Below, piece after piece: positions 43,161 through 58,560 of a stretch of DNA of 64,000 bases (the first letter of the stretch is position 1; each line of letters starts with the position of its first letter). The notes beneath the pieces were generated by a model, which did not search any database, was not told the DNA's origin, and saw only the letters and a list, made by a program, of their open reading frames with translations. Position numbers and translations under genes: made by a program. Where the stretch lies: contig JAJHTX010000002.1 in assembly GCA_032164295.1 (NCBI GenBank), positions 992,001-1,056,000 on the forward strand, in the 5' to 3' direction. This DNA is from Inonotus obliquus (taxonomy: Eukaryota > Basidiomycota > Agaricomycetes > Hymenochaetales > Hymenochaetaceae).

Positions 43161-44269
43161 CCCTTGTTGAGGACTGGTCATAATCATATGGACATATACA
43201 GCATAATAGAGAAAGGGAGAGAAGGTGAAAGGTAGAATAATTAAATGAAGAGAGGTAACAGTATTAGAGAAAGAATTAACAGAAAAATCAAGCAAAATCA
43301 ACTATCTGACCTTATAAGTTGCTGTGCTCATTTTAGAGGTGTCTCCATCTCTGATCCCAGTTTCTCTTGTGCATAGATGTATGCAATCCCTAAGTTGATG
43401 TGATCATTGTGAGTGTCTAGGCTCTCTTTATTCATGCAGTCGTATGCTACAGCAATAGCCTCGGCAGACTTGTGATCTGCGATAAAGAAAGGTGTGGTTT
43501 CCTTTAACCAGTCTGTAAGGGTACTAAGGTTCCTATTCTCGGCCGATTTAGTATAGTGGGTGGGGGTATACTGTCGTACTGAGATGGTATTGGCTATTAA
43601 ATAAACCAAGTACACTCTCGCCGAGTCGACCAGTTTATTTGTCTAGACAGATAGTCTTCTCAGTCATTTATTGAAGCTATGGGCAACTTGTTGTAGTTGG
43701 AGGGTTGAGGGACTCAAGTTTGAGTAGAGAGATGTAGAGTGAGTGAGAGATGAGTCTTTATCTAATTTTCTTAAATATGAGTGATGGATCATAGTAAGTA
43801 AGGAGGAATAAATTGTCCACACCGAGGTAGACAATGACAAGCTATGCAAGATAGATGTCAATGTTTAGAGGGACACACACACTTGAAGTTTCAAGATATC
43901 AGATATTGACTTTGAGCAGGATTTATCACCAATGTCCAATTGGAACAGAGACAACATAATATCTTTAACTAGTACCAAACTAGTCCCTGAGCAATGCAGT
44001 TATCTAATCTACTCTAAGCTGTATGCAATGAAACCTTGACTCGAAAATAGTGTAATAAGAGATTACAGAGTAATGTGAGCTTGTTTTATTCTTAGATTGC
44101 TAGAGCTATGAGTTATTGCTCCTCTGGGGGGCCACATGCTAGTCCTTATAAACTAATTTCAAGACCATTTTACATAATCTACAGCATAAGCTAAAAATAA
44201 ATTTACATCAACCACAGAATTAAAATTTAATGTCTCCTTCTAAACAAATGTTCCAGATGGGGTAATATG
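43161..44269. other. AT-rich segment between elements, one unidentified 95-codon frame
   Basis: A minus-strand frame, 43615-43328, encodes a hydrophilic segment (TDWLKETTPFFIADHKSAEAI). Immediately upstream on the same strand, 43861-43664 ends QLQQVAHSFNK. Together they could be parts of one degraded coding region, but I do not recognise a family. Otherwise nothing is seen. Confidence 0.35.
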
Positions 44270-44462: not shown

Positions 44463-45462
44463 TTACTGTTTTTTTCATATGTATTGTCACACCGTGATTT
44501 TTCCACAAAACCTTGACCGTTTTGTGTCATCTAAGTTGCTAAATTCATTTCTCAATTGTGCTGTCCAAACTGTAACAAATTCGAGTAAAATTGGTGAAGA
44601 ATTGATCTCAAAATGGTGCAAAATGCCGTTTTTTCATGCTTTTGTCTTCCCTATTTTTTCCTACACTCAATTCTGGGTCTGCAGCACCCATAACTGTCTC
44701 AGAGCCCTCAGCCTCAGATGGAATAACTGTGAATTTAGAGAGTGAATTTGAGGTGCATTATGAGTTGTGTGTGCCAGTCTGGGTCATATCTGAAATACAG
44801 AAATCCACCTATTTTCTCTGAGCTCCTCATACTTTAGAACAAGCCAACTGAGGCTAAATTCATACATGTAAACTCACTCTAAGTGCATTGAAAGCTATCT
44901 GAGCCCTTTTTGGAGCTGATGCTTAGATTAAAAGGCTAGGGAAGGGCAGGAAGAATTGTGTATATATCCAGTCTCTTTCACCTCATTCTTCTCATCATTA
45001 TGCACAGCAGCCTTCAGAAGCACTCAATCCTCTTCCAATGCACTTGTTCTAAAGCATGGGGAGCTCAGGGGAAATAGGTGGATTTCTGTATTTCAGACAT
45101 GACCCAGACTGTTACACACAGCTCATAATGCACCTCAAATTCACTCTCTAAATTCACAGTTATTCCATCTGAGGCTGAGGGCTCTGAGACAGTTATGGGT
45201 GCTGCAGACCCAGAATTGAGTGTAGAAAAAAATAGGAAAGACAAAAGCATGAAAGAACAGCCATTCTGGGATCAATTCTTTACCAATTTCGCTTGGATTT
45301 GTTATAGTTTGGACGGCACAATTGAGAAATGAATTTAGTAACTTAGATGATGCAAAACAGTCAAGGTTTCGTAGAGATATGGCAAGGTTTGTATTTTGAG
45401 AGATTTGAGGTGCTGAAAATGGCAAAATCACGATGTGATAATACATATGAAAAAGGCAGTAA
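44463..45462. mobile_element. foldback (large inverted-repeat) element
   Basis: Left arm 44463-44845 and right arm 45042-45462 are inverted copies, about 90% identical overall. The innermost ~115 bp around 44664-44760 and its partner are near-perfect. About 50 bp of the right arm, near 45365-45420, is absent in the left. The loop (44846-45041) holds a TATATAT at 44961-44967 followed by a CT-rich run. Both arms encode the same peptide frame (RALSLRWNNCEFRE). The element has no transposase frame; it would be a non-autonomous foldback element, and any transcript would fold into a long hairpin. No clear target duplication was found. Confidence 0.82.
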
Positions 45463-47006
45463 TGATATAATTGATGACCTAAATGATGATATAATCAATG
45501 ACCTGATTTAGGCCTATTTGGCTTTTGGTATCTGGACTGTGGTCTTTGGTTTTTCCAGAGCAATATATTGAATGGCTTCTTAGATAAGACCAAATGAATG
45601 GTGCATCTAAAAGCTCTTAAACCTTCATGTCTGCTTCTCGATTGCAACCATATAAAGAATGGTTTATTTATCTATCGCCACTAACGGGAAATACTGGAGG
45701 CTACAATTGATATAGGCTTAATTATGTGATTCTACTGCTTCTTACTTCTCTTCAGACCACGGTACTTCTGCCATCCTATCTATGCCTGCGGTTTGGACGA
45801 AGTACAAGGCTTCTGTGATTTGACAAGGCTAAGATTGATTGAGAACTGGTCCTACATGCTTTAAGCTAGACTTCTGTGCTAATATCGAATCATCAATTCT
45901 TGCGCCCGTCTTCCATCACAGTACCGAACCACCAAGCTTTGATACCAATGATACCAATACTGTACCATCCACCCATCCTGATACCGAAATTTAATAGTCC
46001 ACATTTAGTCAATACTACGCTCTCGACGGCCTATACCAAGAAAAAGGTCACAAGCTACAATCGGTCTGTCATACGTTGCTGCAAAGAGTTGAATCATCAA
46101 AAGTGTCGAAGCTCCAAGTCCAACGGTCTGCCCTTCCAAACTGCCGTGCATCGATACCAACAATATCAGTGTTGATACCAGTGGCTCACTCCAGTACCGA
46201 AGTTTGTGACGTGTGCTAGGTTGATACCATGCCCTCAAAGATTTTTGTCAAGAGGAAGGTTGGGAAATGAATCAGATCTGCCATATGCTGCTTCGGTCTC
46301 AGAGGAGACCATCAATCCAACTCGAAAGTAAAGCCAAGCAATGCCCAGTCAAGCCAGACAATGCGTACCAATAGATATCAAGGGGCATGAGCAATCTTAT
46401 CAATGCCCAGGGATGATCCCAGTGTACTGATTGGTACTGAGCGATAGAGTACTCCTATGCTAAGGTTGGGTTATATCGACATGTCAACTTCGGCGCATGC
46501 CGTCCAATCGCTCGGTAAACACCCAGACTGATGCTGCACGGATCATGATACCGGAACAAAGGTAAATCTGGATAACGTGCTTCTCTGAAGAAGAAGACAA
46601 TAGGGCCATCGTCAGGAGTACCTATGCGGTAGCTTAAAACACGTTCTCACTTTAATGCTGGTCGACATTGGTACTACCACCCTACCTCGGTATCACTTGC
46701 CGTGAGTTTTCATTGAATTCTTGTCTCATCCCACTCTATTCTTAGCTACCCCTTGATAAAACTTCTTATTCATTCATCATCTTATGTTTTCCCTGATTAT
46801 ATTTTTACATTTATTTCGACCTTATGTTCCCCTTCTTGTACCAGATTATAGTACGATTCGACTCGTAAAAGGCTATGTGGTATTTATAGCCTGCATATTC
46901 TACTGTAGCAGACCAGCTAATCTGAGAGGAGCTTCCAGAGTGAAGATCTGGGTTTTGCTAATCTTGTTCAAGTCCCTGTTCGTTTGTCTCATCTCGTAGT
47001 CGCCGG
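45463..47006. other. AT-rich to GATACC-rich flank, probably part of an older related LTR element
   Basis: After the remaining tandem repeat (to 45515) the sequence becomes rich in GATACC, GGTATC and GTACC words from about 45925 onward. This resembles the young element that begins at 47007. Its counterpart on the other side (52846-53220) looks like the 3' end of a diverged LTR. No intact gene is present. The frame at 45876-46175 has no motif. Confidence 0.4.
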
Positions 47007-48374
47007 TGAAGAGAACTACGTGCGGCTGAGCTCAGTATCAACCCCGGTATCCCATTCTACGCTTACCCCATGCTATGGTACGGTCCCATCTACACCTTAC
47101 AGTATCTACCAGCACACCTAGAGAAACCGTTGGTCCCATTTCTCAAAGTACCGAACGCCGAGAGTACCGGTACCGAGCGCCAAGAAACCCGGTACCGAGA
47201 ATACCGAGAGTACCGAGTGCCGAGAAACCCGGTACCGAGACAAATTGACAAATTGACATGCTCTCATGACATGGATCGGACGTCTCCCTCTCTGGTATTC
47301 ATTCCTGATGGTTGGACTATGCATGCCGGTTCTTTGGAAAAGCTCAGGGTCAGTATCCATTAAGGTTTTCAGGTCCGGTACCACCAGGAACGTGTCGGTA
47401 TCAATCAGCAGGGGCGCATATCTCTTGTCCTGAGGACTTTTCATCCAGGGGTACTATATGCTACGTTTTCATTGGTATCTTGTCCTCCCTAACCCTTTCT
47501 TGTTGTCCCCCTGATGGCGCTGCAATGTTCACTTTCCTTGTTACATTTTCTTCAGACTTTTCTTTGTTTTGATCTTCCTTTCTACTTTCTCCTTTTGGAT
47601 TTATGAGCTAACTACAGTACAGTAGTATAAATATCTCCTCCTGTACGTAGTAGCTCTCCAGGTAATCTTAGGAGCTAGCCTCTAGCGTGAGGGCTCAGGT
47701 TTCCTCACCCCCTTCTCAGTTCCGTCTCAGTCTCCTCTCAAGCTTCGTCTCAGTCCCATCCTAGTTCCGTCTCAAGTGAACCTTCGGAGTTAGCCTCCCG
47801 TGTGAGGGCTCAGGTTTGCTTCCCAGTCCAGTCGACATCTTCATCCACCAGTCTCTCCCATCCAGTTTCTTGCTATACCACCCCGTGCCAGTTGTTTTCT
47901 TGCAGTACCGACGTGTACCGACGTTTTTCCCACGGTACCGACGTTTTGTTATCCTTTGTATTCTGCACATCCACCTTTTGTTTCTGTACTGAGCTTTTGT
48001 TTTACAACGTTTCTGCACATACCGATCCCGTTCGTTTAAGTACCGACCTGTACCGACATTTTTCCCACGGTACCGACCCCTTTCTTTCTGTACCGACCTG
48101 TACCGAGGTTTTTCCCACGGTATTAGACTCTTGTTTTGCTACGTTCTCTCCCATACCGACCTGTACCGAAGTTTTTCCCACATTCTAACCTGTCCTTTTC
48201 ATACCAGAATCACATACCCTTCACTTCCGGCCCATCCATTAACTCCCCCTTTTCATAGACAACAAGTACCGTGACCGTACTGGTTAAGTACCGGCACGTA
48301 TTAGCCCTCCCCCACTTAAAACCATACACCCCTCGTCTCGGTATTTCGGTACCGGACGCGATCTCGCACATTTA
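47007..48374 (+). repeat. 5' LTR of the Gag-only element
   Basis: 1,368 bp, begins TGAAGAGAAC. Very rich in GGTACC and CGGTA words. Four imperfect repeats of a unit containing GTACCGACCTGTACCGA then TTTTTCCCACGGTACCGA lie between 47910 and 48185. Confidence 0.95.
47910..48185 (+). repeat. four imperfect repeats of a TACCGAC..TTTTTCCCACGG unit in the LTR
   Basis: Units containing GTACCGA, TGTACCGA and TTTTTCCCAC(GG) start near 47910, 48038, 48098 and 48151. The same set lies in the 3' LTR about 4,471 bp away. This could be a set of binding sites or an enhancer. It is observed directly; function is unknown. Confidence 0.85.
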
Positions 48375-48376
48375 TC

Positions 48377-48392
48377 TGGAGCCCACCGCGAG
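48377..48392 (+). promoter_or_regulatory. candidate tRNA primer-binding site
   Basis: TGGAGCCCACCGCGAG starts with TGG, as expected for a site complementary to a tRNA 3' CCA end. It lies 2 bp beyond the LTR repeat. The tRNA is not identified. Confidence 0.5.
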
Positions 48393-48643
48393 GGAGGGTT
48401 TTCAAGGTGTCTTGTTGTCTAATTGATTATTCTGACTACTCCCTTTCATTCCCTTTCAATACCGACAGTTTGTTTTGTCCAGTTCATCTCTGTAAAAGTC
48501 TCGGCAGACCGGTACCTCGGTACCGGACAGTAGCATTTATTCTTATTATCGCTTCACAGTCTCCCAATCATTTAGTCTCACTCTTTTTCAGTTCGTATTT
48601 CACCCCGTGATTGTTTCTAGAGTTATACCCCCACTCGAGCAAG

Positions 48644-51103
48644 ATGGTAGGACGTCCTCCTAGACGCAGAACCGAAGATGCTCCTTCGTTCGATGGTACC
48701 AAACCACGAGAACTGCCCCGGTACCTTGAAGACATAGAGTACCTAGCTGCCGAGTACAACCTAGACCCAGCCCAGACGATTTGGTATGCCAGATACTATG
48801 CTTCTCGCACTGTAGCCGAGCTTTGGAAGACCTCTCTGGACGTGTCAGATACCAGTACCGACTGGTCCAAGGCCAAGGCAGCAATCATGTCATTTTACCC
48901 GATATTGTCTGAAGGAGCCCGGTATACTCGAGAAGATGTTGCCCAGCTTGTAGAGTTCTGGAGATGCAAAGGGATCAAGACACGACTCGATCTGGCCCAG
49001 TACCGGAACGAATTCTTTGTGCGTTGGAGCTACCTGAAGAGTCTCGGTACACTCTCGGTAGAGGAAGCAGCCCGGTACTACTTCTCAGTATTCACCGGTA
49101 GCCTTCGGGATCGCATCCATTTACGTCTCGAGACAAAAGAAGCCGATCCCCAGCCTGGAACGACGTATACAGTGGAGCAGATCCATAAGCACGCCGATTA
49201 TGTCCTCGGTATCGACTTTTTCGATGAATCACCTTGTACCGGATTATGTAATGCTGAGTCGCAGCCAGTCAAGGAGGAGCCGGAGCTTGGTACACTCTGG
49301 AAGACGTTGCAGGTCCTTCAGTTACAGGTAGAGGAACTGGAGCAGGAGCAGCAGTTGTTACTGGAACCAGTGGAGTTGCCTTCGGTAAACGTAGTTGTGG
49401 CCCATTCACCTCCGGTATCAGTCTCGGTACCGATCCAGCAACGCCGAGAGTCCCCAGTTGCAAGGCAGAGAATTGCAGAGGAGGTAGGAGATGATCAGGA
49501 GGTCATTAGGTTGGAGATTCTGCTTGAGGAGGCTCGAAGGAAGGCAGAGGAAGCACGCAGGAGGAAGTACCGGAGTGCCGAGAGATCACAAGTACCGGAG
49601 TACCGGAGCGCCGAGAGATCATCCATACCGGAGTACTACTATATGGAGGACACGTCTCCCAGCAGAGTCTTAGCAATGCCGGACCCACTCCCGAAACCCA
49701 AAGAAGATGTGTACGAGCCCTCGGTAGCTGGCTGGAAGTCTCCGGTACTGGCCCCGGTAGATCAGCCTCTTGGATCTGGGCTTACGGTATCTCAACGCGA
49801 GTTGTTGGCGTTGTCGCAGGAGCTTAGAAGGCAGATGAGCGAGTTGGTTTCAGTTGAGTGTGGAGGTCCCAGGAGTGCGTATACAGTTGGTACCGAGGCA
49901 GCAGGAGAGCCGTCAGAGAAGGAAGAAGATCTCCCGGTACTCAGCTCCAGGTCGTTAGTTGAAGAAGGACCAGCAGATTCGGTTGCAGGAGGAGACGTGT
50001 TAGGTCAGGAAGTAATGCAGTGTCTAGAAGGCATACGTCTGGTGGACGAGCATCGAGTATCGATCGGAATTGAGGTGCACAGCCACGTACCGGACCCTGG
50101 TATCAGTCAGGATATGGATCCAGCTGACGACTCGTTAGTGTCATCGGTGGCTCCGGTACCAGTCATTCCAGTGCCAGATGAAATTGTCAAGTCCCCGGTA
50201 TCAATCGTTCCAGTGCAGGATGCAATCGTCGAGGCCCCGGTACATGCTCTAGATTTTTCGGTACCTGTTCTCCCAGTCATTGGCATTGTTAGGAAGGCCC
50301 CCGCTTCAATCTTCTGTCTAGTTGGCACTCATCCTCAGGTTTTGGATCCAGTGTACGAATTTCGGAAGGCATTTACTGGTTGCTCCCCCACGCGCGTCTT
50401 GTCACCCGGGATTCCTCAGCCTCTCGGTACCGAGCACAGCCACATCGAGTCGGTAGACGCCAGCCATTCGGACTATGGTACTAGGAAGAATTCATCCCTG
50501 GAGTCTCAGGTCAGCCGTACGACATCTACTGGAACTAGTAGAGCTTCTATTGGTATTGGAGGAGTCGCACGTTTTGGCTTATTCGATCGATTTCCGGTAC
50601 CGGTACCGGTACTTTTCTCTCGGCATCGGTACCAACCCCCTGGTATTGGCTCAGTAGTTCGTTCAGTGGTGGCAGCAGCTCTTGAAACTCATTCTACGAC
50701 CCATCGAAGCATTTCCGGTACTTCAGTAAGGGCTCTCGAGTTGGGAAATGTGGTGACCGTAAAGTCTACAAGCACCAAGGAGTCATCGGTATTTGGTACA
50801 CGTGATGGACTATGGTTCAAGGACGACTATGGCTTGCTCATTTTAGGACAACTCAGCCAGACGTTCCCTGCCAACCCGGGCAAGCAACTAGCGACGGCTC
50901 GCAGCAGCTACCGGTACCAGAGTACTGCGCAAGACTCTCTCCTGTTCTCAGTACCGCCTCGGTACCGCTTACATAAGCTCGGTACCGGACGGGGCTATTG
51001 TATCAATGGTGGAACATACCTCGGTATGGCTGTGGACTGGTTGCTACCCCTTTCCCAGCTATTCTTTCTTCTATTCCACCCTCTCCTTTCTGATTATGGA
51101 TAA
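48644..51103 (+). CDS. gag: Gag-like protein of the non-autonomous element
   Basis: 819 residues from the ATG at 48644, preceded by GCAAG; an upstream in-frame ATG at 48611 exists. The N-terminal 200 residues resemble basidiomycete Ty3-type Gag: SFDGTKPRELPRYLEDIEYLA, TVAELWKTSLDV, DWSKAKAAIMSFYP. Next comes a short acidic coiled coil (WKTLQVLQLQVEELEQEQQ, and later RLEILLEEARRKAEEARRRKY). The remainder is Ser/Pro/Val-rich, disordered and probably hypervariable. No CCHC zinc knuckle and no protease, RT or integrase follows. It is unbroken, in contrast to all other transposon frames here. It presumably packages its RNA in particles made with enzymes from another element. Confidence 0.85.
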   Translation: MVGRPPRRRTEDAPSFDGTKPRELPRYLEDIEYLAAEYNLDPAQTIWYARYYASRTVAELWKTSLDVSDTSTDWSKAKAAIMSFYPILSEGARYTREDVAQLVEFWRCKGIKTRLDLAQYRNEFFVRWSYLKSLGTLSVEEAARYYFSVFTGSLRDRIHLRLETKEADPQPGTTYTVEQIHKHADYVLGIDFFDESPCTGLCNAESQPVKEEPELGTLWKTLQVLQLQVEELEQEQQLLLEPVELPSVNVVVAHSPPVSVSVPIQQRRESPVARQRIAEEVGDDQEVIRLEILLEEARRKAEEARRRKYRSAERSQVPEYRSAERSSIPEYYYMEDTSPSRVLAMPDPLPKPKEDVYEPSVAGWKSPVLAPVDQPLGSGLTVSQRELLALSQELRRQMSELVSVECGGPRSAYTVGTEAAGEPSEKEEDLPVLSSRSLVEEGPADSVAGGDVLGQEVMQCLEGIRLVDEHRVSIGIEVHSHVPDPGISQDMDPADDSLVSSVAPVPVIPVPDEIVKSPVSIVPVQDAIVEAPVHALDFSVPVLPVIGIVRKAPASIFCLVGTHPQVLDPVYEFRKAFTGCSPTRVLSPGIPQPLGTEHSHIESVDASHSDYGTRKNSSLESQVSRTTSTGTSRASIGIGGVARFGLFDRFPVPVPVLFSRHRYQPPGIGSVVRSVVAAALETHSTTHRSISGTSVRALELGNVVTVKSTSTKESSVFGTRDGLWFKDDYGLLILGQLSQTFPANPGKQLATARSSYRYQSTAQDSLLFSVPPRYRLHKLGTGRGYCINGGTYLGMAVDWLLPLSQLFFLLFHPLLSDYG

Positions 51104-51477
51104 TTTTGAACTTCTACTTCTGAAATCCGTTTGCACGGTCGGTATTTGATTGTTTTACCTTCTGTACCTATACCCCCATCCCATTCTCAAATTATCTTAT
51201 ACATTCTTCCACTGTCTCACTTATTCACGTTCTTCTGTCCTTTGTTCGAATTTCGGTATTGGTTCCTATTCGATGACACTGCAGTTGCATTCCACTGCCA
51301 CTCCCCGTACTGAAGCTTACTAATCACTGGTACCGGCAATGCCGAGTCGACTCGATGATGGATTGGGTTGGAGGAAGGACTCTTTGGCTTACCTCTCCTT
51401 GTGCCGCCTCACGTTACCGATGCACCTTGGCTTTGGAGGATGACTGAGGACAGTCACTATTTAAAGTGCCGGGGAGA

Positions 51478-52845
51478 TGAAGAGAACTACGTGCGGCTGA
51501 GCTCAGTATCAACCCCGGTATCCCATTCTACGCTTACCCCATGCTATGGTACGGTCCCATCTACACCTTACAGTATCTACCAGCACACCTAGAGAAACCG
51601 TTGGTCCCATTTCTCAAAGTACCGAACGCCGAGAGTACCGGTACCGAGCGCCAAGAAACCCGGTACCGAGAATACCGAGAGTACCGAGTGCCGAGAAACC
51701 CGGTACCGAGACAAATTGACAAATTGACATGCTCTCATGACATGGATCGGACGTCTCCCTCTCTGGTATTCATTCCTGATGGTTGGACTATGCATGCCGG
51801 TTCTTTGGAAAAGCTCAGGGTCAGTATCCATTAAGGTTTTCAGGTCCGGTACCACCAGGAACGTGTCGGTATCAATCAGCAGGGGCGCATATCTCTTGTC
51901 CTGAGGACTTTTCATCCAGGGGTACTATATGCTACGTTTTCATTGGTATCTTGTCCTCCCTAACCCTTTCTTGTTGTCCCCCTGATGGCGCTGCAATGTT
52001 CACTTTCCTTGTTACATTTTCTTCAGACTTTTCTTTGTTTTGATCTTCCTTTCTACTTTCTCCTTTTGGATTTATGAGCTAACTACAGTACAGTAGTATA
52101 AATATCTCCTCCTGTACGTAGTAGCTCTCCAGGTAATCTTAGGAGCTAGCCTCTAGCGTGAGGGCTCAGGTTTCCTCACCCCCTTCTCAGTTCCGTCTCA
52201 GTCTCCTCTCAAGCTTCGTCTCAGTCCCATCCTAGTTCCGTCTCAAGTGAACCTTCGGAGTTAGCCTCCCGTGTGAGGGCTCAGGTTTGCTTCCCAGTCC
52301 AGTCGACATCTTCATCCACCAGTCTCTCCCATCCAGTTTCTTGCTATACCACCCCGTGCCAGTTGTTTTCTTGCAGTACCGACGTGTACCGACGTTTTTC
52401 CCACGGTACCGACGTTTTGTTATCCTTTGTATTCTGCACATCCACCTTTTGTTTCTGTACTGAGCTTTTGTTTTACAACGTTTCTGCACATACCGATCCC
52501 GTTCGTTTAAGTACCGACCTGTACCGACATTTTTCCCACGGTACCGACCCCTTTCTTTCTGTACCGACCTGTACCGAGGTTTTTCCCACGGTATTAGACT
52601 CTTGTTTTGCTACGTTCTCTCCCATACCGACCTGTACCGAAGTTTTTCCCACATTCTAACCTGTCCTTTTCATACCAGAATCACATACCCTTCACTTCCG
52701 GCCCATCCATTAACTCCCCCTTTTCATAGACAACAAGTACCGTGACCGTACTGGTTAAGTACCGGCACGTATTAGCCCTCCCCCACTTAAAACCATACAC
52801 CCCTCGTCTCGGTATTTCGGTACCGGACGCGATCTCGCACATTTA
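51478..52845 (+). repeat. 3' LTR of the Gag-only element
   Basis: Begins TGAAGAGAAC directly after a GGGGAGA purine tract; matches 47007-48374. Confidence 0.95.
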
Positions 52846-53225
52846 CCGGTATTGATACCAGTAGTCGTTGATATTGTCTTTATAGTACTCACCTCTCATC
52901 TCACAACTAGTCTCATCCTCTACTCATCCTCTACTCATCTTCTCCACTGCTTTGTTCTCACTACCGTGATATCGAACGACAAATGTCTTGATATCAACAA
53001 ATTTGTCTCGGTATTGACCGCCTCCTGATACTTCGCCTCTTGAGCGGTCACCTAGGATCCCCTCCCCTGTACTTATCTATCTAGCCAGGCCCTACTATCT
53101 CTCTCGACGTCCTGTCTGTGACAGTACAACTTAGTACCGCCACATACTGGCCCTCTCAATGCACCTAAATTGTATCCCCCTTGTCTAGTACTTCTGATAC
53201 TGGCTGCGTTTTCGCACAATCACCG
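52846..53225 (+). mobile_element. 3' end of an older related LTR
   Basis: About 53115-53220 aligns with the last ~120 bp of the young LTR: AGTACCG, a CCCTC block, then TCTAGTACTTCTGATACTGG and TTTTCGCACA. It is diverged in many positions. Together with 45925-47006 it suggests that the young element landed inside an older family member. Confidence 0.55.
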
Positions 53226-54063
53226 CTTGAGTTTCTTTCCTACAATTCTTTATTCTAATGCTATTATTATAACTTTGTGTACAACTTCACCATCTGCTCT
53301 GCCACTCTTCTGATCTTCTCAGGCTGGCATTTATATATAGTTGCACTTCCTCTAACTTGATTCAGTAAGTTACTTTCTCAATACTTTATGATCTTTATGC
53401 TTATTAACATAAAGAGTATTTATAGAGACAACTATAATGATCGAGAAGAAGTGGGTCGAGTAGGTACTGGTGCTTGTTACTAAACAAGTTATTCTCAAGG
53501 CTTGATAGTAAGCTTGGCACTTTCAATTGGCTTTTGATTTACTAACTTGTGTGTAGAATTACTGTGGTGTCCAATATTCTTTATTTTTTCCCTTTTTAAT
53601 ATTCTGCTATGTTTTTGCTTCTAATAATGTAAAGTGTGCCAATATTACAATTATTTATGTCCAGGCAATATTCTGGCCTGACATTTGCCCAATACTTGAA
53701 TATCAACTATCTCCAGTTGCAAACTTCCTAAAAAAATCCTCCTGAAGAGCTGATATTTAATTATTCTAGAAGAATATTGATATGTTAGCTTGCTGCTTTT
53801 TTTTGTGCCTTGTTCTTATTACATAAGTGATCAGCTTCAATGTTTGCATCTTCAAGTAAGTTTGCTGTCGACTCCTTTCTTTGTTACTCACTATGTCCTT
53901 CATACTCCCTTCCTTCTTTACTGTACCTAATATTCTTGACTGGCAGCAAATTGTTTTTCCTACTTCTCAATTTGTTCTATTAACCTCTGATTATGATATT
54001 CTCTCTGCAATTTATATTGTTAAAGTTGATCCAGGTAGGTGCCCTTTCTAATATGTCTGTTAA
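53226..54063. other. AT-rich segment with no recognisable feature
   Basis: About 840 bp of AT-rich sequence. No coding frame above 60 codons and no repeat of the kinds described here were recognised. Confidence 0.5.
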
Positions 54064-55690
54064 ATGTGCGAGATTGCATCCAGTACTGAAAAACTGAGAC
54101 AAGGGATGCATAGTTTAAGAGAGGGAGGGTTAATATGTGCTGGTACTTAACTAGTATGGTCACAGTACTTATTGTCTATGAGGAGAGGGTGATATCAGTC
54201 TGGCTGGAAGAGAAGAGAATGAGATCTTAGTATGTAATGAGAGGGTTAATACCATGGGAAAAAATGTTGGTACAGGTTAGTATAGCAAGGAAACAGCTAG
54301 TACAGGATGGTACAATAAGATTGAACAAGGTGGTCGAAATAGACAGAGACAGAGCTAAACACAATGAGCTAGTACCATGGAAAAAATGTTGGTATAGGTT
54401 GGTACTACTAAAAGATAGCTAGCATAGTAAATGTGTGAGAACGTGGCTAGTATTGGAGGTACCAGTCAAGGAGTGTATAGTATAAAAAAGAGAGAGGGCC
54501 AAATGAGGCTGTACTTATCCAGTACGCTTACAGTACTTGTTGTCTAAAGAAGGGAGATATAAAGGAAGTTAAAGGAATAATAGAAAGGGGTGCTGGACCA
54601 GTTAGATATTAGGAGGAATGTGTTCTTGTCCAGAATCAAGAGGGTTGATACTATAGGAAAAATGTTTGTACAGGTTGGTACTTGAACGAACAGGATCGGT
54701 AGGTGAAGAAACATTGTAAAACAAAAGGTTTGTACAGAAACAAAAGGTGGATGTGCAGAATATGAAGGATAACAAAAGGTTGGTACCATGGGAAAATCGT
54801 CGGTACAGGTCGGTACCACAAGAAAACAACTAGTACAGGGTGGTATAGTAAGAAACAAAATGGAGGAGACTGGTGAATAAAAGTGTCAACTAGACTGGGA
54901 AGCAAAGCTGAGCCCTTGCATAAGAGGCTAACTCTTGAGGTTCACTTGAGACAGAACTGAGATGGGATCGGGATGGAACTTGAGACAAAACTGAGACAGA
55001 ACTGAAAAGAGAGTGAGAAAACCCAAGCCCTCACGCTAGAGGCTAGCTTCTAAGATTACCTGGAGAGCTACTATATACAGAAGGAGATATTTATGCTACT
55101 GTACTATAGTCAGCTCATAATTCCAAAAGGAGAAAGTAGAAAAGAAAATTGAAACATAGAAAAGTCTAAAAAAAAATATCATAAGAAGAATGAATACAAT
55201 AGAGCTATCAGAGAACAACAAGAAAGAGTTAGGGAGAACAAGATACTAATGAAAATGTAGCACATAGTATCTCTGGATGAAAAGTCCTCAGGACAAGAGA
55301 TTTGCATCTCTACCAATTGATATCGATGTGTTTTAGGTGGTACTGGACCTAAAAACCTTAACAGATACTGACCCTGAGCTTCTTCAAAGAACTGGCACGC
55401 ATAGTTCAACTATCAGGAATGAATAGAGAGAGAGATGTCTGATCCATGTCACGAGAGTATGTCAAATTGTTAAAATATCTTGGTACCAAGTTTCTTAGCA
55501 CCCAGTACTCTCAGCACTCTCGGTACCGGGTTTCTTGGCGCTTGGTACTGGTACTCTCGGCATTTGGTATCTTGAGAAATAGGACAGATGGTTTCTTTGG
55601 GTGTGCTGATTGATACCGGAAGATATAGATGAGACTGTACTATAGCATAAGATAAGTATGGAATAAGATACCAGGCTTGAAACTGAGCTC
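54064..55690 (-). mobile_element. decayed LTR copies of the GGTACC family, inverted
   Basis: The region is made of minus-strand, diverged LTR-like sequence. Frames at 54602-54829 (-) still read FSCGTDLYRRFSHGTN, matching the LTR shadow frame FSCSTDVYRRFSHGTD. GAGGGAGGGTTAATATG at 54120 and GTACTTAACTAGTATGG match the inverted LTR end; a similar one at 54480-54560 suggests two copies side by side. The LTR start region is seen at 55180-55690. Its GGTACC words are largely mutated to GGTACA, AGTACC or similar. Confidence 0.75.
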
Positions 55691-56263
55691 AGCCGTATGT
55701 AGTTCTCTTCAATGAGATGGTATAATAAAAGAATAGATAAGATTGACTGGAGAATGAAGGTGTTGACTGGACTGGGAAGCAAACCTGAGCCCTCACACAA
55801 GAGGCTAACTCTGAAGGTTCACTAGGGCAGAACTGAGACAGAACTTGAGATAAAGCTGAGATGAGACTGAGAAGGGGTGAGGAAATATTAATACTGCTAT
55901 ACTGTAGTTAGCTCATAAGTCCAAAAGGAGAAAGTAAAAAGGAAGATCAAAGTACAGAAAAGTCTGAAGAAAATTGTCATAAGAAGAATGAATACAGCAG
56001 AGCTATCAGGGGGACAACAAGACACTAATGAAAACATAGCATATAGTACCGCTGGATGAAAAGTCTTCAGGACAAGAGATCTGCACCCCCATTGATCGAT
56101 ACTGATGTGTTTTGGGTGGTACTGGATCTGAAAACCTTAACAGATACTGACTCTGAGCTTCTCCAAAGAACTGGCATGCATAGTCCAACCATCAGGAATG
56201 AATACCAGAGAGAGAGAGACATCTGATCTATGTTATGAGAGCATGTTGAATTGTCAAAACTCT
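55690..56263 (-). mobile_element. second, partial decayed LTR of the same family, inverted
   Basis: Another minus-strand LTR fragment repeats the LTR middle: a frame reading MDYACQFFGEAQSQYLLRF at 56188-56006 matches MDYACRFFGKAQGQYPLRF in the young LTR. It ends in GAGAGCATGTTGAATTGTCAAAA at 56263, where a copia LTR remnant begins. Confidence 0.7.
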
Positions 56264-56318
56264 CTACCTTTTATGCTTATCCACTGCATATAGTGTGTTC
56301 AGGTTACTGCTGCTTACA
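56264..56318 (+). repeat. truncated 5' LTR of the copia element
   Basis: CTACCTTTTATGCTTATCCAC and GTGTGTTCAGGTTACTGCTGCTTACA match the last 55 bp of the 3' LTR (61010-61064). Confidence 0.75.
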
Positions 56319-56331
56319 GGTTATATGAGCC
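56319..56331 (+). promoter_or_regulatory. half-tRNA-type primer-binding site of the copia element
   Basis: GGTTATATGAGCC follows the LTR end. It resembles the complement of the initiator-tRNA anticodon arm (GGTTATGAGCC) with two extra bases, as known for copia-type elements that prime from a cleaved tRNA-iMet. Confidence 0.5.
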
Positions 56332-57079
56332 TTGTGCTCTGAGTCACACACATACACTGTTGCTTCTGAGTGAGAATCAGTTCACATTAAGTTCTGAGTT
56401 TATTGGATCACCTCTGGCTTTTATAAATCACCTCTGGGCTATTTTGAAGCTTTCTTATTGCTCTCTGCCACTTCTGTGATATTGGAAATTGATTCTGGCC
56501 CCTCCAGATATCTGAATTGCAATATCTTTGTATTCAGCCATCTGATCCTGCTCAAATTCTGCACATGCTTGATCTATGGCCACCTACTATTGTGCAAAAG
56601 GGCTCTCTAATCAACCTTGATCTTGTTAAGTTAAAGATACAGCAATTTTTGTATTTCATACTGTCAAGCTTTTATTGCACCTGCACACATTTTTGCCTAT
56701 TGCAGCACATGAGGTGCATACTGACTCTTGCATCATTCTGTCTATCCATTCTGTTGCTATATCGATTTTTGTCATTTGCCACTGTTCTTTGCAGTTAGAG
56801 TACAGCCTTTACATCCAATTGTTATTGTTGGATCAGGGAATCCTACAGACTTTGAAGCTTGTCTGCCCAGCCTTAGTTTGCTGATGCCTTGTCTTGCAGG
56901 TAAACCTGTGTATACTTCACAACACAGAGTGCTCTGTAGCTACCACTGACTGTATTTGAATAAGTGCCCATTCTATCCCTACTTCAATTTTGCTCATATC
57001 TCATCTCTCTCTTATCTGATTACGTTCCTGTTTTATGCACTAGCTCTTGCACATGCCAATTACCTCCCTACCAAGTGCC

Positions 57080-57790
57080 ATGGCCGATCCTGCAGGTGCT
57101 GACTCACAATCAGCATTTGTGAAGCTGGACACATCCAACTATGCAACTTGGGAGTTTGACATGCAGGTCTTCCTGCAGACCAAGATGCTGCAGCAGCTTG
57201 TCAGTGGTCAGGGGAAGCAAACTGATGAGGAGAACAAGCCTGAACTAGCCACATAGCAGGTAAAGGCTGAGCATGTGGCTGGTCTTATCTATCAGAATAT
57301 AGACCAGAGCATGCAGATCCTTGTTAGAGAGAACATCTCAGACTCTATTGAGATGTGGAGTGCACTCAAGAAGCTGCATAAGCAGAACAACCCCACTGTG
57401 TGCTTTCTGGCCTACCACTCCTTCCTGTCCATTCAGAAGCAAGAGAATGAGTCACTCAAGCAGCTCACCTTCAGAGTTGAAAAGGGCATTGCATGATGTC
57501 AGAAATACTTGCAAAGCAGACCTCACATTAGAGAAGTTTGAGGAAGAGCTTGTATGTACCATCCTATGTTGTTCTCTGCCTGAGGAGTTCTCTTCCTTCA
57601 GATCTGCTATCCTTCTCAAGCCTGACTTTGGCCGGGAGGCACTCAAGTCAGCTCAGAAACACTCTAAGGACTTTACTTGTAAGTTCTGTGGCATTAGGGT
57701 ACATGCAGAGACAACCTACTTCAAGGAGCAGAATGCAAGTAAGGCAGTGGGCAGAGATCAAGGACAAGAAGGGAAAGAAGAGACAGAAGT
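57080..57790 (+). pseudogene. gag: copia gag remnant
   Basis: From the ATG at 57080, frames carry FVKLDTSNYATWEFDMQVFLQ and SIEMWSALKKLHK with the UBN2-type Gag pattern. A stop (57254-57256) and a frame change after 57495 break it. A CKFCGIRVHAET segment near 57680 may be the zinc knuckle. Confidence 0.78.
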
Positions 57791-57823
57791 AGAAGGCCAA
57801 TATTACTCAGGAGGAAGACTCTG

Positions 57824-58560
57824 ATGCTGCTCAATCTGCTGAAGTTGCTGGAAAATGCAAGTACTCAAGACTACACCAATCCGCACTCACCACTCATCTC
57901 TGATGCTGGATCTGACTGGATTGTTGACACAGGTGCCACTTGCCACATGACACCACACAGACACTGGTTCCACCATTATGAACCAAAGTGCATTCCAGTC
58001 AGACTTGCAAACAACCACATTATTTATTCAGTTGATATGGGGACAGTGTGCTTCCAACCTTCACTATGCGGAAAACCTAAACAGTTGCTTGAATTCTATT
58101 GTGTATTCCATGTTCTAGATCACAGAAACAACCTCCTCTTAGTCCTGTATTTGACCAGAACCAAATCCTATATTGTCGCCATTCTCCACAATCAGGATCC
58201 TCTTTAAACAAAATAACACATTCCTCTTCACTGCAACTATTGCTTCTAACAATATTCACAAGCACATATCCACTTAACTTTACCCTGTTGTACCAGAGAG
58301 GTTTGCACACCTCAACCACAGTAATGTGAAGCTGTTGCATAAGGAGCAGATAGTGAATAGAATGGCAATCAAGTCCACAACTGCTCCAGATCACATCTGT
58401 GAGCCATGCATTGCAGACATGCAACACAGGGCCAATGTCTCTAGACTTGCATGCTCCAGACACAAGTACTGGATTACCTTCATTGATGACTCTAGTTGCT
58501 TCTGGACTTGCAGAGGGAATCACCACAATGCTCAATGCAGCATGTCTACCTCCTAGCTTC
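57824..58560 (+). pseudogene. copia protease and GAG-pre-integrase remnant; integrase core deleted
   Basis: The protease motif DWIVDTGATCHMT lies near 57920-57950. GAG-pre-integrase (HLNHSNVKLLHKEQ, CEPCIADM) is at about 58310-58430. Integrase starts at YWITFIDDSS, about 58470, and the rest of the DDE core is missing before sequence resumes near 58590. Frames are broken by stops. Confidence 0.78.

Follow-up and report, generated by a model that had tools for sequence, protein, structure and literature searches.

Gag-only, non-autonomous long terminal repeat (LTR) elements have been described in plants under the name TR-GAG. For the VANDAL transposons of Arabidopsis, the cited parts of the literature describe dense short motifs and a sequence-specific anti-silencing by the VANC proteins (PMC5735166, PMC10398659). 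The plant elements Retand, Grande and RIRE2 are described there as carrying antisense open reading frames (ORFs) between pol and the 3' LTR (PMC11963269, PMC7264820), and for Pleurotus ostreatus cysteine-cluster ORFs of the CxC5/CxC6 type are reported in association with Copia elements (PMC7641404). The locus considered here is a 64-kb window of the genome of Inonotus obliquus (contig C2, 992001-1056000, in the searched assembly of 36.07 Mb and 30 contigs), which contains a gag-only, non-autonomous Ty3/gypsy-like LTR retrotransposon, hereafter element A. Both A and its autonomous relative, family B, are dense in the word CGGTA (TACCG on the other strand). It seems, with a probability that we would put at about 0.58, that CGGTA is a DNA recognition word under purifying selection at the level of the element, which would be read by a Zn2Cys6-like protein encoded antisense in family B, with an effect resembling anti-silencing.

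Enrichment of CGGTA in elements A and B

Gag is the sole long ORF in the internal region of element A, which lacks pol, and the two LTRs of the window copy are identical over their 1,368 bp. The A LTR has at least 49 matches in the genome, while A-type gag sequence is present at 22 loci, many of them with an open frame. The A gag ORF gives no Pfam match, and none of the 7,994 public proteins scored as candidates matched it at E 0.001. It is 57% identical to B gag over residues 1-239 and is without the CxxC-type knuckle and the protease, both of which are present in B. Family B (six loci, 55-57% identical to A over about the first 240 gag residues) encodes a gag-protease ORF of up to 835 aa, a reverse transcriptase and an integrase, with Asp_protease_2, RVT_1 and Integrase_H2C2 over the Pfam cut-off and RT_RNaseH_2 just under it (27.6 versus 29.8 bits). 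It is an autonomous Ty3/gypsy-like element, of which the copy on C2 (LTRs at 1086689-1088409 and 1098400-1100121) measures 13.4 kb end to end. A and B share a polypurine tract, nearly identical LTR tips, NCGN target sites and, at the primer site, 25 identical nt; of the LTRs themselves, only about the last 100 nt align in blastn. Because the primer site, the polypurine tract and the LTR tips are common to both, A is most likely mobilised by B. A sister family, C, is 48% identical to B in the reverse transcriptase region.

The original prediction, made from the letters of the window, held that GGTACC is in great excess in LTR and coding sequence alike and in several reading frames, so that protein constraint would not explain it. 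This was borne out. The window contains 41 GGTACC sites, 30 of which lie within 47007-52845 (7 per LTR and 13 in the gag ORF), which gives a density in A of 5.1 per kb. Genome-wide the word is unremarkable, with 7,506 occurrences (0.21 per kb) versus 7,427 for the reversed control word. In the 4,471-bp unit of A used for counting, from which the 3' LTR was left out, 23 sites were found, versus a mean of 1.35 and a maximum of 6 in dinucleotide shuffles (n=500). A longer word, CCGGTACCGG, occurs twice in the window, both times within A, and the 8-mer CGGTACCG is found 1,677 times in the genome versus 412 times for its control.

It is the shorter word CGGTA that is enriched and conserved, GGTACC being largely the dyad CGG-TA-CCG. 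In the same 4,471-bp unit there are 88 CGGTA/TACCG words, versus a mean of 8.1 and a maximum of 18 in dinucleotide shuffles. CGGTA/TACCG is the top-enriched 5-mer in all seven A and B regions tabulated and is not among the top words listed for family C or for the gene part of the window. Dimers with another fixed spacing than CGG-TA-CCG were considered and rejected, since 28 pairs stand at offset 3 (+- orientation) and other spacings reach at most 8. The words run through LTRs and coding regions at roughly 16 to 23 per kb, i.e. about one per 50-60 bases, and each region of A and B has them in both orientations (e.g. 20 CGGTA and 21 TACCG in B gag). LTR density is 23 per kb in both A (32 in 1,368 bp) and B (40 in 1,722 bp). 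A copy of family C holds 0.4 words per kb, and the gene part of the window, from which alone the host density was taken, 35 in 36 kb (0.97 per kb).

One might suspect that the words simply follow from protein sequence or codon bias, given that word-bearing dipeptides are over-represented in A gag (GT 13 times versus 2.8 expected). The LTRs are equally word-dense, however, and synonymous-codon shuffles, which hold the protein constant, stay below the observed count in each of the seven ORF rows tested for A and B. In A gag, where the words occupy all three codon frames, 48 words were observed versus a mean of 14.0 and a maximum of 26, and 13 GGTACC sites versus a mean of 3.37 and a maximum of 10 (n=1000 for each). 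For family B the counts were 39 in a gag-protease ORF (mean 8.7, maximum 18), 34 in pol (mean 8.3, maximum 17), 19 in the integrase part (mean 4.7, maximum 11) and 54 in an antisense ORF (mean 10.5, maximum 20), whereas the first ORF of family C shows no excess (3 words versus 4.7 expected). Observed counts thus lie beyond the range of dinucleotide and synonymous shuffles alike. As fourfold-degenerate sites within words are moreover conserved (see below), the chance that protein sequence or codon bias generates the words appears close to nil.

Conservation and turnover of the word

Conservation was assessed at 22 loci aligned to the window copy, in 58 stretches of at least 300 nt and at least 90% identity. 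A base-matched control (TA elsewhere) replaced an earlier control of all non-CpG bases, because T and A do not deaminate. Along the five positions of CGGTA, the substitution rates in A copies were 0.043, 0.036, 0.0099, 0.0011 and 0.0005, versus 0.083 for the next base after the word, 0.022 for the base before it and 0.105 for the third base before, and the conservation signal ends at the edge of the word. The T and A of the word had changed in only 3 of 3,064 comparisons, versus 369 of 7,617 for TA elsewhere (about 50-fold), 132 of 4,219 for TA in GTA outside words, and 46 of 1,316 for TA in GGTA without the leading C. Counted by columns, 3/150 were variable in words versus 61/362 for TA elsewhere (Fisher p = 3e-7). 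Family B behaves likewise (5/849 versus 50/1,362; p = 6e-5 by columns). At fourfold-degenerate non-CpG sites of A gag, 2 of 614 comparisons showed a change within words versus 483 of 5,716 outside. Three other 5-mers, out of the 261 that occur 8 times or more, changed at lower rates than CGGTA, each with 8-12 occurrences versus 88. Taking each of 15 gag copies as the reference (L020, being a tandem, was skipped), 12 give 0-1 changed T/A in about 1,060-1,300 comparisons, and with all 15 the rate for word T/A is lower than that for TA elsewhere (65-219 of about 2,350-2,770). What is conserved is the DNA word itself, whether its positions are synonymous, nonsynonymous or non-coding.

Individual sites do turn over. 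Over 453 aligned codons of A and B gag (53.6% nucleotide identity), each has 22 words, of which 6 are in the same place, and the 15 A gag copies show 65 word positions, of which 21 are common to all 15. Density is kept while sites move, as selection on a dispersed recognition word predicts.

Alternatively, the words might have accumulated without selection, through mutational or slippage spread or through shielding from mutation, including CpG decay; the original prediction had likewise offered an escape from methylation-driven decay. Some local tandem repeats do hold the word (periods 22, 33, 42 and 50), and word CpGs in young A copies have been lost less often than other CpGs (141/3,473 versus 906/6,186). 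Most words, however, lie outside tandem arrays and in all frames, and density is equal in LTRs that cannot be aligned. Moreover, word CpGs decay much like other CpGs in dead copies (43/102 versus 90/192) and in family B (66/904 versus 328/3,844), while the strongest conservation is found at T and A, which do not deaminate, with adjacent bases changing freely. Decay escape thus falls away as a cause, and an origin without selection is very improbable.

That selection acts on the word itself is well supported by these sequence comparisons. Given such selection, the dispersion of the word, its two orientations, its presence in both A and B, and an antisense candidate in B point to recognition by a protein of the element itself. 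Such recognition could in principle take place in the particle, with Gag, integrase or another element protein binding the RNA or cDNA so that it is packaged, imported into the nucleus or integrated, and a packaging signal was also among the suggestions of the original prediction. It would fit that the words span the full length of A and B, like a nucleocapsid or cDNA-coating site, and that A, with gag alone, still keeps them. Two orientations everywhere nevertheless fit double-stranded DNA better, and A gag has lost the knuckle of B gag, yet the words were kept. RNA structure was rejected as the cause, the RNA being no more structured than dinucleotide shuffles (mean z 0.00 for the A LTR, 0.50 for the A internal region and 0.16 for the B LTR). 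The packaging signal therefore finds no support here, and a role in the particle is, all in all, quite improbable.

A candidate reader in family B

In family B, the stretch from pol to the 3' LTR contains a long antisense ORF. This ORF is free of stops over 991, 993, 994 and 869 aa in the copies on C2, C5, C12 and C9, and broken in that on C11 (i.e. open in four of the five long B copies), with fragments on C10 and C13. With a dN/dS of 0.28 between the C9 and C2 copies (34.5 synonymous and 27.5 nonsynonymous changes) and 0.37 for the C11 copy, the ORF is under purifying selection. Its product is a low-complexity protein with glutamine runs, in which six of the seven cysteines, at 779-808, are spaced as C-x2-C-x6-C-x7-C-x2-C-x7-C, kept in all five copies read. 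This spacing fits the pattern of the Zn2Cys6 binuclear cluster (Gal4-type, Zn_clus, PF00172), a class of proteins described in the cited source as typically recognising CGG triplets, some as monomers (PMC5559640). A profile of three antisense copies and three host relatives, compared by hhalign with six host Zn_clus domains (6 of 20 fetched host stretches were usable), gave a probability of 79.6 and E 1.5e-5. None of 736 candidate public proteins matched the antisense domain, and an NCBIfam search gave no useful match. In the one copy of family C that was examined (L042), no antisense ORF of at least 150 aa with such a domain was found between pol and LTR. From the sequence we infer that the antisense product may be the reader of the words. 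A limited literature search, mostly outside subscription journals, did not turn up any report of an LTR retrotransposon that encodes a Zn2Cys6 protein, of such a dispersed word or of CpG-centred target sites of LTR elements.

A domain like that of the antisense ORF is present at three host loci (E 0.0013 to 0.015), which also have weak matches, to Zn_clus (E 0.15, 1.4 and 1.7) among others. Two host ORFs, at C4:571200-573900 (L043) and C4:27400-28400 (L044), have a related six-cysteine domain with a C-[VIA]-G-x-x-G core, and are a possible source or relative of the domain of the element.

The existence of such host domains lends some weight to another explanation, in which the words are sites for a host DNA-binding protein (e.g. 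a host Zn2Cys6 factor), exploited for transcription or chromatin opening, with the antisense ORF being unrelated. In fact, 37 of the 49 Zn_clus matches listed in the genome are over the Pfam cut-off, so that host readers of CGG exist. However, the gene part of the window contains few of the words, activation by the host would not require words across gag, pol and the antisense ORF, and the sister family C manages without them, which makes a host reader unlikely. The suggestion of the original prediction that the word is a binding motif for a host or element protein remains the best reading, in view of its conservation as a DNA word and of the Zn2Cys6-like ORF in B; it is the element's side of that suggestion that is favoured, with binding itself as a prediction.

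Recognition by the antisense protein of B could work as follows. The binuclear-cluster protein would bind CGG-TA half-sites, single or paired into CGG-TA-CCG dyads, all along the DNA of every family copy, both B itself and its gag-only parasite A, by which this DNA would be marked as kin. By analogy with VANC and VANDAL, it may be presumed that the mark protects the copy from silencing and/or activates it. With the loss of words, a copy would then recruit less protein and leave fewer offspring, through which density could stay high while single sites turn over.

Several observations weigh against the reading of CGGTA as a selected recognition word with an antisense-encoded reader. With about 90 words per element, far beyond the need of a promoter, selection per word must be weak. 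The signal at fourfold sites of A gag is modest when counted by columns (2/35 versus 70/329, p = 0.026), and there is partial dependence on the reference, as L009 and L011 give 11 changed T/A and L018 gives 15. Release in the two dead A copies (window 53501-57000 and L027) rests on little data (4/90 versus 21/259; p = 0.33 by columns, not significant). In the B-LTR relic of the window, changes of word T/A are still few (1/72 versus 13/123), a counterpoint that is softened by the fact that part of the divergence arose in the live lineage. To these can be added the ordinary CpG loss of words in family B. As for the reader, Zn_clus is the sole Pfam match of the excised domain, at E 0.7 and 10.5 bits, below the cut-off of 21; with the full ORF, neither Pfam (E up to 10) nor the genome search for PF00172 (E up to 1) gave a match, and a PDB sequence search gave no solved relative, only one unrelated match at E 0.029. 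Finally, the association of word and ORF amounts to one clade versus one sister family.

A more specific proposal, to which we would give slightly less than even odds on the sequence data, is that the words form an element-wide self-tag that extends over coding sequence, is read by an antisense-encoded, Zn2Cys6-like protein, and sets kin copies, whether autonomous or parasitic, apart from other genomic DNA; it would be a kin-recognition code made by a transposon. How a transposon escapes silencing without waking the whole genome is understood in a few cases, VANC among them. In elements A and B, the sequence resolves the presumed recognition code to the single base, the candidate reader belongs to a well-studied protein class with a matching preference, and element A serves as a control, being a natural parasite in which the code would have been retained and the protein lost. 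Such a DNA word would act strongly enough to mould protein sequence as well as synonymous sites, and a tag would explain how non-autonomous copies may stay eligible for help.

Genomic setting and comparison with known systems

The window copy of A was inserted into a decayed LTR of family B (Table 1).

Table 1. Element A and associated features, in positions of the 64-kb window.
Feature	Position	Strand	Remarks
Element A, LTR retrotransposon	47007-52845	+	two LTRs, one gag-like ORF
5' LTR of A	47007..48374	+	32 CGGTA/TACCG words, including 7 GGTACC; identical to 3' LTR
Primer-binding-site region	48375..48400	+	TGG AGCCCACCGCGAGGGAGGG; role presumed from position beside the LTR
Gag-like ORF of A	48644..51103	+	819 aa; 48 words, all frames
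Densest word cluster in A	50596..50607	+	CCGGTACCGGTACCGG, two overlapping GGTACC sites
Polypurine-tract region	51463..51477	+	AAAGTGCCGGGGAGA, near-identical in B; role presumed from position
3' LTR of A	51478..52845	+	matches 5' LTR letter for letter
Target-site duplication CCGG	left copy 47003..47006, right copy 52846..52849	+	4 bp
Decayed family-B LTR, left part	45719..47006	+	81% identical to young B LTR
Same decayed B LTR, right part	52846..53222	+	79% identical to young B LTR
Decayed A-type LTR piece(s)	54061..56257	-	served as dead-copy control

Integration of A and B is centred on CpG (N-CG-N duplications), a dinucleotide that makes up 6% of those in the gene part of the window. Target sites were compared at the window copy, L003-L023 (A) and L065-L084. 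For A, 12 of the 13 tabulated loci with both flanks have an exact 4-bp duplication, all of them NCGN, the exception being L003 (GCGC/GCAC); at L023, which is not in the table, both sides are NCGN but differ in their letters. Six of ten solo LTRs of B have exact duplications, again all NCGN, while the other four differ by one transition. Target choice at CGGTA words was rejected, as the sites are NCGN and only some are then followed by a word.

Elsewhere in the genome, a composite insertion at C9:1331913-1350189 (L030, L033, L010) consists of an A-type LTR, B internal sequence, a B LTR, A internal sequence and an A-type LTR, which suggests recombination between A and B, and a tandem array at C5:949000-958900 (L020) holds two A gag copies 4,445 bp apart with a common LTR. 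In the window itself, positions 1-36000 are gene-rich and high in CpG (about 100-145 per 2 kb), whereas the repeats beyond 36 kb are sharply CpG-poor, as expected if they are methylated and decaying. The window also contains a piece 83% identical to the LTR region of family C (43572-44092), a 219-bp inverted repeat, 95% complementary, within a decayed repeat region (44625-44843 / 45043-45261), and remains of a Ty1/copia-like element (57303-58207; Pol_BBD, E 2.4e-17).

Compared with the systems described so far, element A resembles TR-GAG in having two LTRs, a primer site, a polypurine tract and one gag-like ORF without pol, but it is fungal and has an identified autonomous partner. The CxC5/CxC6 ORFs of Pleurotus ostreatus are likewise cysteine-cluster ORFs associated with a mushroom retroelement; these are of the Copia type and have another cysteine pattern, and the cited part of that report makes no mention of word enrichment (PMC7641404). 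To fungal Zn2Cys6 (Gal4-type) factors, the ORF of B is similar in its six-cysteine spacing, and their preference for CGG fits the enriched word, whereas its domain is below the Zn_clus cut-off and is borne by a retrotransposon, in a low-complexity, glutamine-rich protein.

Retand, Grande and RIRE2 have, as described in the parts cited, a long antisense ORF in the same place as B, and non-autonomous relatives. In Retand, however, this concerns a TRP28 domain predicted to bind DNA (PMC11963269), in place of which the antisense ORF of B has a Zn2Cys6-like cluster (it has no match to TRP28, PF04195, in Pfam at E up to 10), and an element-wide selected word is not mentioned in the cited parts of those reports (PMC11963269, PMC7264820).

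The closest likeness in function would be that to VANDAL and VANC, going by the parts of those reports cited here: a short, dense motif marks the family's own copies, is carried by autonomous and other copies and turns over, and a DNA-binding protein is encoded by the transposon, for which B has a candidate. VANDALs are DNA transposons, whereas A and B are LTR retrotransposons. The VANC21 motif YAGTATTAY is described as mainly non-coding, in one orientation and often in tandem (PMC5735166), whereas CGGTA is coding and non-coding, in both orientations and mostly dispersed. Binding and demethylation by VANC are reported from experiment, whereas the CGGTA system is known from its sequence. The parallel with VANC is therefore one of function, by analogy, and not of membership.

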